Source of the DNA: Clostridia bacterium
Lineage (GTDB): Bacteria; Bacillota; Clostridia; Oscillospirales; CAG-272
Reading direction: 5' to 3'
NCBI GenBank assembly: GCA_017462035.1
Contig: JAFTRY010000031.1
Coordinates: 1-64,000 of the forward strand
DNA: 64,000 bases
This document shows positions 10,698-46,718 of this stretch, in pieces. A model generated the notes under the pieces. It ran no database searches and was not told the origin of the DNA. It saw only the letters and a list, made by a program, of their open reading frames with translations. Both the position numbers and the translations under genes were made by a program. The number at the start of each line of letters is the position of its first letter. The first letter of the stretch is position 1.

Positions 10698-10775
10698 AAG
10701 TCCGTCGAAGGACATGGAAATCCTCCCAACCATCCACCCGAAGGTGCTCGTATGAACCTTCGGGTGAGACTTTTC
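10698..10775 (+). repeat. Dispersed mosaic repeat, copy G (partial)
   Basis: Only the segment GTCCGTCGAAGGAC and the ACCCGAAGGT (10736-10745)/ACCTTCGGGT (10756-10765) palindrome are present, without the GC-rich module or tandem units. From 10776 to 10925 I see nothing else. Confidence 0.8.
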
Positions 10776-10925: not shown

Positions 10926-10954
10926 TTGACAAATTGGCAGAAATGTGGTAGAAT
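10926..10954 (+). promoter_or_regulatory. Promoter of structured RNA copy 1
   Basis: TTGACA (10926-10931), 17-bp spacer, TAGAAT (10949-10954) with TGG just upstream (extended -10). Position 10961, the first base of the closing stem, lies 7 bp after the -10, so the RNA should begin with that stem. Confidence 0.85.
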
Positions 10955-10960
10955 ATACCC

Positions 10961-11118
10961 GTCACACGAATTGAATAGTTTTATCCCCAAAACGGGAAAA
11001 TACTTTGGTAAAAAGTGTTTTCTCTCTTTTCTCATTCCGTTATTGGGGAGCAATTCGTGTGACAACAATTGAGGGGGAAGCATTTTTTCGGTGCGTTCCT
11101 TTTGGAGCGCACCTTTTT
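10961..11118 (+). ncRNA. Structured pseudoknotted RNA, copy 1
   Basis: P1 is GTCACACGAATTG (10961-10973)/CAATTCGTGTGAC (11051-11063). P2 is CCCCAA-AACGG (10985-10995)/CCGTT-A-TTGGGG (11037-11048). A pseudoknot joins AAAAAGTGTTTTCTCTC (11010-11026) inside P1 to GAGGGGGAAGCATTTTTT (11071-11088) after it, with one bulge and several G-U pairs. The terminator hairpin GGTGCGTTCC/GGAGCGCACC (11090-11113) and five Ts end it. Two other loci share this plan with different stem sequences. The family was not recognised. Confidence 0.8.
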
Positions 11119-11137: not shown

Positions 11138-11290
11138 ATGAGCAATGATAATTCAAAAAAAGTAATAGATAGTATCGGCGTAGAACTCACGCCCGGAGAG
11201 CCTACCGTTTGCCTTGGCAACGGAGAGCAAGGCTTTGAATGTTGTTGCGATGAGTGCGACTACTATTTGCTTTGTTTTCCCGGAATTTGA
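11138..11290 (+). CDS. Cys-rich 50-aa micro-protein downstream of RNA copy 1
   Basis: The product is 50 aa with core PGEPTVCLGNGEQGF followed by ECCCDECDYYLLCFP; five of its six Cys fall in the last 20 residues, suggesting metal binding. It starts at the ATG at 11138, 20 bp past the terminator of the structured RNA, with GGGAAA as a weak ribosome site. A close relative is encoded on the minus strand at 25829-26046 behind RNA copy 2, which supports real coding: changes are mostly conservative (E/D, Y/F, L/F). Function unknown. It would be translated only on terminator read-through or from an unseen promoter. Confidence 0.75.
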   Translation: MSNDNSKKVIDSIGVELTPGEPTVCLGNGEQGFECCCDECDYYLLCFPGI

Positions 11291-11451: not shown

Positions 11452-11805
11452 GACGTGCCCCTTTCCTACCGGTTGGTGAATGGTCTTGATGTCTTCGACA
11501 ACTGCAATCCCCCACACCAACCACCCGAAGGTGTTCGTATGAACCTTCGGGTGAGACTTGCTCCATAGCAACGCCTCCCCGACGCATGAGGCGGCGGGGA
11601 TGTAGGGGGGATTTTCAAGGGGGAACGCCTTGAAAACGCTTTCTTCGCCATTCTTTGTCGTTTAACAAAGAATGGCATAAACCTACACCAAAGTAACTTT
11701 ACCATTTTTGGCTGGCGTTCACAGAACGCCCCTACGGGTTTGAGGAAATTTTTCTGTGTTCTTCTTACGGAAAACAAAGGATTACCGAAATATTCTTGCA
11801 AAGCT
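11452..11805 (+). repeat. Dispersed mosaic repeat, copy B
   Basis: Starts with a module resembling one in copies C and E (TACCGGTTGGTGAATGG, then GACAACTGCAATCCCC). The ACCCGAAGGT/ACCTTCGGGT palindrome follows (11523-11552), then the GC-rich module, the CAAAGAATGGC hairpin and one tandem unit. The order is unusual: the GGCGTTCACAGAACGCCCC module (11713) comes last rather than first. The end overlaps TATTCTTGCAAAGCTGTTCT, a short repeat also at 27191. Confidence 0.85.
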
Positions 11806-25712: not shown

Positions 25713-25800
25713 ACGAACCTCAAACCCATAGAACAAACAAAAAGAGCCGTATTCTTAAAGACAGTTTTGCAACTTAAAGAGTACGGTATCTACCGACAAA

Positions 25801-25836
25801 AATGACAGAGAATACTTTACATTCTCTGTCATTTTT
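25801..25836. terminator. Bidirectional terminator
   Basis: AATGACAGAGAAT (25801-25813) and ATTCTCTGTCATT (25821-25833), a 13-bp stem flanked by As on the left and Ts on the right, serving the SGNH gene and the minus-strand micro-protein gene. Confidence 0.85.
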
Positions 25837-26046
25837 CTATTTGTTTTGTACGGTCATTTTTACCCATAGCAATATGTTCTTCTTTGCTTTTTTGATCAAA
25901 TTCGGGGAAACAAAGCAAAAAGTAGTCGCACTCGTCGCAACAACACGCAAAGCCTTGCTCTCCGTTACCGAAACAAACGGCAGGTTCCCCGGGCATAAGG
26001 TCTACACCGGTAATATCCATGCCCTTTTTTGAATGTTTTTGCTCAT
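25829..26046 (-). pseudogene. Cys-rich micro-protein gene behind RNA copy 2, frameshifted at its start
   Basis: The frame from an internal ATG at 26020 encodes GVDLMPGEPAVCFGNGEQGF then ACCCDECDYFLLCFP, closely matching the gene at 11138-11290. The natural start by homology is ATGAGC at 26046, 4 bp after TGGAGGATAT, but that frame ends after 14 codons. Adding one A to a six-A run (26025-26030) restores MSKNIQKKGMDITGVDL, alignable to copy 1. So this is a one-base deletion, a read error, or slippage. C-terminal residues extend about 15 beyond copy 1. Confidence 0.7.
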
Positions 26047-26066: not shown

Positions 26067-26276
26067 AAAAAGGTGCGTAGCCGAAGCCACGCACCGAAAA
26101 ACGCAAACTCCGATTGTTGTCACACAAACTAATCGGAATAGGAATATTTCAGCCATACCCAACTTGGAGGAGCTTGCGTTTTTACCAAGTCCCTAAAGTT
26201 GAGTATGTCAAAAAAAGGGCATAATATCCCTTGAAGCAGAAAATACATAAAATACCGATTATTCAGTTTGTGTGAC
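26067..26276 (-). ncRNA. Structured pseudoknotted RNA, copy 2
   Basis: Read on the minus strand. P1 GTCACACAAACT/AGTTTGTGTGAC (26265-26276 with 26119-26130), extended by AATCGG/CCGATT. An inner helix is CATACTCAACTT/AAGTTGGGTATG. The pseudoknot joins AAAAACGCAAGCTCC (26169-26183) inside P1 to GGAGTTTGCGTTTTT (26097-26111) after P1, 15 bp with one G-U. The terminator GGTGCGTGGC-TTCG-GCTACGCACC (26072-26095) and five Ts follow. Layout equals copies 1 and 3 with different stem sequence. Confidence 0.82.
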
Positions 26277-26282
26277 AATAAG

Positions 26283-26311
26283 ATTATATCATATTTTTAT
26301 CGAATTGTAAA
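26283..26311 (-). promoter_or_regulatory. Promoter of structured RNA copy 2
   Basis: On the minus strand: TTTACA (26306-26311), 17-bp spacer, TATAAT (26283-26288), ending 6 bp before the closing stem. Confidence 0.85.
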
Positions 26312-26628: not shown

Positions 26629-27095
26629 AGGGCTTCCTACGGAAAATCAACGATTACCGAAAAATTCCGTCCGTCGAAGGACGAGGAAATCCCCCCACAC
26701 CAACCACCCGAAGGTGTTCGTATGAACCTTCGGGTGAGACTTGCTCCATAGCAAAGCCTCCCCGACGCATGGAGCGGCGGGGACGCAGGGGGATTTTCAA
26801 GGGGGGAACGCCTTGAAAACGCTTTCTTCGCCATTCTTTGTCGTTTAACAAAGAATGGCATACCTTTACACCAAAGTAACCTTACCGTTCAACAAAGAAT
26901 GACATAGAACCAAACTAAAGTAACTTTCCCATTCAACAAAGAATGGCATAAACCTACATCGAAGTAACTTTCCCATTCAACAAAGAATGGCATAAACCCA
27001 CATCGAAGTAACTTTCCCATTCAACAAAGAATGGCATAAACCCACACCAAAGTAATTTTCCCATTCACTAAAGAATGACATAGAACATTACTTTT
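26629..27095 (+). repeat. Dispersed mosaic repeat, copy D, with six tandem units
   Basis: Begins with GGATTACCG-like ACGATTACCGAAAAATTCCG, then the ACCCGAAGGT/ACCTTCGGGT palindrome (26706-26735), the GC-rich module, the CCATTCTTTG/CAAAGAATGG hairpin and tandem units starting at 26849, 26893, 26937, 26981, 27025 and 27068 (period 43-44 bp). It abuts the 201-bp inverted-repeat element. No gene is supported from 26047 to 27300 apart from the RNA. Confidence 0.9.
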
Positions 27096-27194: not shown

Positions 27195-27300
27195 CTTGCA
27201 AAACTTCCCTTTAGAGCACTGCTCTAATCGTTTAGCGTGATGTTCTTAACGGACGAATCCCGCTTAAACGGGGAGTATTTTATAATAGATTGAAATTCGC

Positions 27301-46361: not shown

Positions 46362-46390
46362 TTTACAAATTTCGAAAACGGTGTTATAAT
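46362..46390 (+). promoter_or_regulatory. Promoter of structured RNA copy 3
   Basis: TTTACA (46362-46367), 17-bp spacer, TATAAT (46385-46390), ending 7 bp before the closing stem, the same geometry as copies 1 and 2. From 46121 to 46361 nothing else is recognised. Confidence 0.85.
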
Positions 46391-46397
46391 AGATGTT

Positions 46398-46595
46398 GCC
46401 AAGCTAATCAAATAATGCAAAACAGGTATAATTTTCGTTTAGGGGAAGTATACTCTTTTTCCGCATATGCAAAATATGAATTTGATAAAATGCAAATTCC
46501 ACTTTGTATATGCGGTTATACCGATTTGCAAATGATTAGTTTGGCGACTACCGGAGTTTGCGTTTTTGTGCGTCTGCTTCGGTGGGCGCACTTTT
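46398..46595 (+). ncRNA. Structured pseudoknotted RNA, copy 3
   Basis: P1 GCCAAGCTAATCA (46398-46410)/TGATTAGTTTGGC (46533-46545), 13 bp with one G-U. Inner helices include GGTATAA/TTATACC and CCGCATAT/ATATGCGG. The pseudoknot joins AAAATGCAAATTCC (46487-46500) to GGAGTTTGCGTTTT (46553-46566), 14 bp with two G-U. The terminator GTGCGTCTGC-TTCG-GTGGGCGCAC (46568-46591) plus TTTT follows. P1 shares almost no sequence with copies 1 and 2, yet pairs fully. Confidence 0.82.
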
Positions 46596-46718
46596 ACTGT
46601 AAAACCTTCTGAGGCGTTTTGCAAGGTATGTCGCAACAGGATTCCCGATAGTGCAATGATTCCCCTGTGTGAAGACTGCATTGCGGAAGCGGTGAAGATT
46701 TATAATGAAAGAAAGTAA
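46566..46718 (+). pseudogene. CxxC-rich open frame behind RNA copy 3 (no good start)
   Basis: The open frame ends at TAA 46716-46718 and reads TVKPSEAFCKVCRNRIPDSA then MIPLCEDCIAEAVKIYNERK, two CxxC pairs 14 residues apart as in a zinc ribbon. No ATG lies before the first pair; the only start is a TTG inside the pseudoknot strand. It takes the same place as the Cys-rich micro-protein genes of copies 1 and 2 but is not clearly related in sequence. Possibly a decayed gene. Confidence 0.4.

Follow-up and report, generated by a model that had tools for sequence, protein, structure and literature searches.

The 64,000-nt window (the whole stretch of DNA that was analysed) was found to contain three copies, here called c1, c2 and c3, of one RNA family with the order promoter, closing stem (P1), pseudoknot and intrinsic terminator. 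Going beyond the sequence-only reading that had drawn attention to these loci, the RNA was found to be widespread, multi-copy and placed as a 5′ leader of downstream genes. Judged from comparative sequence analysis, it probably acts in cis as an attenuator which gates read-through into those genes. The features of the three loci are as follows, with their basis in brackets.

10926–10954 (+): promoter of c1, -35 TTGACA at 10926–10931, -10 TAGAAT at 10949–10954, spacer 17 bp (sequence)
10961–11063 (+): RNA body of c1, short type, with hairpins inside P1 (10961–10973 / 11051–11063, arms GTCACACGAATTG/CAATTCGTGTGAC), 6 nt from the promoter (fold, cmsearch, covariation)
11010–11088 (+): pseudoknot of c1, 16 bp, loop and 3′ flank AAAAAGTGTTTTCTCT (11010–11025) with tail GGGGGAAGCATTTTTT (11073–11088)
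11090–11118 (+): intrinsic terminator of c1 (sequence, fold)
11138–11290 (+): small Cys-rich ORF 3′ of c1 (MSNDNSKKVIDSIGVELTPGEPTVCLGNGEQGFECCCDECDYYLLCFPGI)
26283–26311 (-): promoter of c2, -35 TTTACA at 26311–26306, -10 TATAAT at 26288–26283, spacer 17 bp (sequence)
26119–26276 (-): RNA body of c2, long type, P1 at 26276–26265 / 26130–26119, arms GTCACACAAACT/AGTTTGTGTGAC, 6 nt from the promoter (fold, cmsearch)
26097–26183 (-): pseudoknot of c2, 15 bp, AAAAACGCAAGCTCC (26183–26169) with GGAGTTTGCGTTTTT (26111–26097) (inverted repeat I7)
26067–26095 (-): intrinsic terminator of c2 (sequence, fold)
25829–26020 (-): small Cys-rich ORF 3′ of c2, with a frameshift near the usual start
46362–46390 (+): promoter of c3, -35 TTTACA at 46362–46367, -10 TATAAT at 46385–46390, spacer 17 bp (sequence)
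46398–46545 (+): RNA body of c3, long type, P1 at 46398–46410 / 46533–46545, arms GCCAAGCTAATCA/TGATTAGTTTGGC, 7 nt from the promoter (fold, cmsearch)
46487–46567 (+): pseudoknot of c3, 14 bp, AAAATGCAAATTCC (46487–46500) with GGAGTTTGCGTTTTT (46553–46567) (sequence)
46568–46595 (+): intrinsic terminator of c3 (sequence)
46596–46718 (+): zinc-finger-like ORF remnant at c3 (containing CKVCRNRIPDSAMIPLCEDCIAEAV), without a clear start codon

The earlier reading had described promoters with a 17-bp spacer at all three loci, a closing stem of 12–13 bp beginning 6–7 nt after the promoter and a 10-bp hairpin followed by Ts. All of these are present in c1, c2 and c3, the promoters being of sigma-70 type and the hairpin of ~10 bp with its T-run forming a terminator. 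Fold energies are -64.8, -80.6 and -77.7 kcal/mol, respectively (z of -7.9, -8.0 and -8.3 against dinucleotide shuffles), and cmsearch scores are 47.7 bits for c1 (model R1), 183.9 bits for c2 and 159.2 bits for c3. No further clear copy of the RNA was detected in the window by covariance-model search, and an Rfam scan of the window recovered a T-box, a SAM and a glycine riboswitch together with two tRNAs. REP-like intergenic palindromes of the type ACCCGAAGGTGTTCGTATGAACCTTCGGGT lie beside c1 and c2 (10735–10766, 11533–11555 and 26704–26736), and several near-repeats of TATGCCATTCTTTGTTGAATGGGAAAGTTACTTTGG occur upstream of c2 (26880–27080, minus strand).

The RNA is roughly 160–210 nt long and occurs in two size types which, with the terminator included, measure ~205 nt (long; c2 and c3) and ~155 nt (short; c1). 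The covariation claimed for the closing stem was suggestive in three copies and became strong with further homologues: across 77 distinct sequences 99.6% of P1 is paired, and 9 of the 11 pairs tested show compensatory changes on both sides. In the same alignment, which had been made to a model without any pseudoknot, the pseudoknot is 94–100% paired and double changes are found in 7 of its 15 pairs; no shuffles matched the observed values for P1 and pseudoknot. Fifteen long copies aligned separately gave compensatory double changes in 8 of 12 P1 pairs, and slid controls collapsed. The covariation takes in many GU pairs.

A pseudoknot had been proposed without its pairs, and these were located in all three copies between loop and tail. 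The tail, which links P1 to the terminator, pairs over ~15 nt with an apical loop A(4–5) and the nucleotides 3′ of that loop. Among 60 distinct loop-tail combinations the duplex begins with the first A of the A-run and extends over ~13–16 nt; its mean energy is -16.8 kcal/mol with a copy's own tail vs. -10.8 kcal/mol with the tails of other copies, a difference equalled by none of 10,000 permutations (the computed value for c1 is -15.4 kcal/mol). In 96 of 104 class-wide copies an unsupervised search located the duplex at this A-run loop; the set includes related copies, so this and the following counts are not counts of independent events. The U-tract of the pseudoknot abuts the terminator. 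An unpaired motif AATA follows the 5′ arm of P1 in 84/104 copies, an unpaired AC[AT]A or GC[AT]A stands on the 3′ side of P1 in 98/104, and a loop TTTG(G/A)TAAAA is conserved. With this covariation, a near-universal loop-tail pseudoknot and a wide distribution, the view that the loci encode a conserved structured RNA is upheld.

The family is confined to one class in the genomes sampled. A covariance-model search across Clostridia, which had been suggested as a check, gave matches in 91 of 391 genomes of the class; within the family the figure is 118 of 196, and all five genomes of this genus carry the RNA (the E-values of the covariance models are rough). The negative control, ~380 genomes of other classes within a phylum-wide sample of 398, gave no match. 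Ten genomes searched deeply hold 7–14 copies each, 14 being the most observed. The description of a three-copy family therefore stands for the window and fails for the genome, where, incomplete as it is, eight matches were found (one of them a weak fragment at a contig edge). Membership of a known Rfam family, which had been thought possible, was not borne out by Rfam 15, where the RNAs coincide with nothing more than weak chance matches (the best being Phe_leader with 33.4 bits against a cut-off of 55) and no covariance model scored at or near its gathering cut-off. No description of the family was found in the portions of the literature covered, and the 3161 candidates left unnamed by Fremin and Bhatt (PMC8040213) may include it. 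A Gut-1 RNA (RF01706, 56.3 bits) was seen near an RNA copy in a distant genome (L269:1383–1459, minus strand).

The position of the RNA relative to promoters and genes suggests a leader. In the class-wide copies, a -10 box with at least 5/6 matches was identified in 93/104, and in 73 of these 93 its distance to P1 is exactly 6 nt. An ORF with a Shine-Dalgarno sequence starts 10–30 nt after the terminator in 38/104 copies, whereas the divergent side gives 0/96 and shuffles give 0/104; up to a distance of 110 nt the figures are 73/104, 12/96 and 1/104 (the ORF calls follow a simple rule based on SD, start and length). A gap of 10–30 nt between terminator and start leaves little room for another promoter.

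The downstream genes differ widely and encode lipoproteins, secreted and BspA-like proteins, zinc-ribbon membrane proteins, SLOG, flavodoxin and SHOCT proteins and the small Cys-rich protein, with lineage-specific paralogue sets also among them. About half of 80 nearby ORFs are lipoprotein-like or have a signal/TM segment, a share estimated simply by counting residues. Between copies that precede different genes, similarity is limited to the stretch from promoter to terminator; given the diversity of those genes, promoter, RNA and terminator together are the common module. The ORF remnant at c3 gave a weak double-zinc-ribbon match. DUF6809-like genes follow two other copies in the same genome (L248:1489–1763 and L249:1447–1491), one frameshifted and one represented only by its end.

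A small Cys-rich protein is encoded after c1 and c2, and that of c1 belongs to no Pfam or NCBIfam family. When a 104-aa homologue from elsewhere in the same genome (L002) was used as query, 37 of the 196 family genomes proved to have relatives, and 129 relatives were found by scanning public genomes. The 80 retained of these 129 are all from metagenome-assembled genomes (MAGs) titled Oscillospiraceae or Clostridia bacterium and, where the titles among those 80 name a source, it is ruminant gut samples. Nearly every locus having the N-terminal part of the protein carries an RNA of this kind immediately upstream. In other genomes the C-terminal portion of the 104 aa (KRHKIRMNRLFRE..PFPEVD) stands alone (L036, L039, L057 and L060), in the last three of these after the end of a tyrosine-integrase-like gene. 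The c1 ORF has a single additional base near its 3′ end compared with its homologues; the genomes used are mostly MAGs, and assembly errors may account for some of the frameshifts. A phage or plasmid origin was rejected, as the protein has no match in phage or plasmid collections. Four IMG/VR contigs with an exact match to the tail motif hold no RNA copy.

On the computational evidence, transcription is predicted to start at or beside P1; P1 closes a long structured domain, and the 3′ tail pairs into the apical loop and leads directly into the intrinsic terminator, which in most copies has a Shine-Dalgarno sequence and start codon a short way beyond it. In the proposed role, most transcripts would stop at the terminator, and the folded P1-pseudoknot domain would set how often the polymerase reads into the gene, with a ligand, a factor or direct contact with RNA polymerase as candidate routes. 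The module would be coupled to many unrelated accessory genes, around half of which encode cell-surface or secreted proteins and others small Cys-rich and zinc-ribbon proteins. Two features of a transcriptional attenuator are found, namely a structured leader between a promoter and the adjacent coding region, and an intrinsic terminator. In the class-wide copies no upstream complement of the terminator arms exceeds shuffles (mean z of 0.08 for the 5′ arm and -0.52 for the 3′ arm), and a classical terminator/antiterminator switch is thus not visible. Tentatively, the family could represent an undescribed class of gene-control RNA in gut Clostridia, in which a 15-bp pseudoknot beside the terminator sets read-through without a conventional antiterminator, via a ligand or RNA polymerase. 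If the leader reading holds, many unrelated genes for surface, secreted and small proteins in many families of gut Clostridia would be under one unrecognised RNA element, which would provide a handle on a large gene set without known regulation. The missing conventional antiterminator makes the mode of control directly testable.

One form of the leader reading is an orphan riboswitch, in which a metabolite would stabilise the P1-pseudoknot core and thereby alter termination. The conserved unpaired motifs beside P1, the TTTG(G/A)TAAAA loop and the leader position are consistent with it, as is the competition of two structures for one strand: the loop-tail duplex at -18.0 kcal/mol and a small apical hairpin at -4.5 kcal/mol, which makes two states possible. 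However, no mutually exclusive antiterminator was found in the class-wide copies, the downstream genes have no common pathway and no ligand candidate emerged, which leaves this form possible and rather unlikely. Together with the RNA-only antiterminator considered below, it is one of two ways for the leader reading to be true, and the probabilities given to these two forms are not in competition with that of the leader itself.

In the genome under study, five of seven copies precede broken or absent ORFs with P1 and pseudoknot intact, and in general the quality of the structure does not depend on whether an ORF is nearby. These observations would also fit an RNA with a function of its own. On that account nearly all transcripts would end at the terminator as a stand-alone sRNA acting in trans, and the genes would merely profit from leaky read-through. 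The retention of structure where the ORF has decayed or is absent, the presence of several copies per genome and a predicted transcript running from P1 to a strong terminator, as in stable sRNAs (mean -13.7 kcal/mol, T-run of 5–6, class-wide copies), speak for it. However, it has no need of the clustering of SD and start at 10–30 nt past the terminator, and we consider it unlikely.

The other form of the leader reading is an RNA-only antiterminator of the HK022 put type, the leader binding RNA polymerase and carrying it past the adjacent terminator. It would suit a long structured leader with a pseudoknot strand abutting the terminator and no antiterminator, and the known protein routes are unlikely here. 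Of the 177 family genomes having a NusG match, all except one, the present genome included, have a single match; LoaP-dependent antitermination was therefore rejected as a general route, a second NusG paralogue being absent in nearly all family genomes. Control as an ANTAR-regulated leader was likewise rejected as a general route, since no ANTAR-domain protein was found in the five genomes of the genus, all of which carry the RNA. The argument for a put-type leader is, however, purely inferential, and its likeness to put and EAR was checked by the Rfam scan alone, with no match; it is regarded as improbable.

Imperfect inverted repeats of 38 nt (74%), at 25735–25772 and 27196–27233, enclose c2 together with a patchwork of shorter repeats. 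Related units at other loci have their 3′ end marked by AAAACTGTCCTTAAGAGTACG, with the inverse motif upstream, and at two loci (L103 and L129) the sequences outside the unit ends resemble the arms of a single intrinsic terminator.

A mobile or recombining intergenic unit, whose RNA would serve the movement of the unit and not gene control, is the least probable of the alternatives. Near-identical units of RNA and ORF with sharp common ends are found at different loci, c2 lies between the inverted repeats, and the RNA is missing at the orthologous site of c1 in four genomes of the genus and at that of c3 in the one genome of the genus where this could be tested. Vertical conservation at the same site was rejected for c1 and c3, as their orthologous sites are without the RNA. 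However, in distant genomes whose downstream genes differ, the copies have promoter, RNA and terminator in common and no shared ends, no linked recombinase was noticed (there was no dedicated search), and covariation with many GU pairs indicates that the sequence works as an RNA. An integron attC-like site, suggested by the variable inverted repeats, was set aside, as promoter, terminator and GU-tolerant covariation indicate an RNA.

Among known systems, 6S RNA has a size of ~200 nt and a long closing stem in common with the RNA described here, which differs in its pseudoknot, many copies and leader position; 6S RNA was rejected for want of a match to the RF00013 covariance model. Type III toxin-antitoxin systems (ToxIN and CptIN) show the same layout of promoter, pseudoknotted RNA, terminator and small gene. 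However, the present RNA has no visible repeat array and its downstream proteins vary between genomes; with these proteins diverse, no Pfam or NCBIfam toxin family and no ToxN-like endoribonuclease, this identity was also rejected. In put (HK022), EAR and LoaP-dependent leaders a leader RNA stands ahead of a terminator, as here, whereas the present RNA matches none of them in Rfam. The SAM, T-box and glycine leaders, which are also found in the window, are like the present RNA structured 5′ leaders with their own promoter and an intrinsic terminator shortly before the start codon. The RNA described here differs from them in having no Rfam match and no visible antiterminator, in being attached to many unrelated genes, and in possessing a 15-bp pseudoknot whose tail adjoins the terminator.
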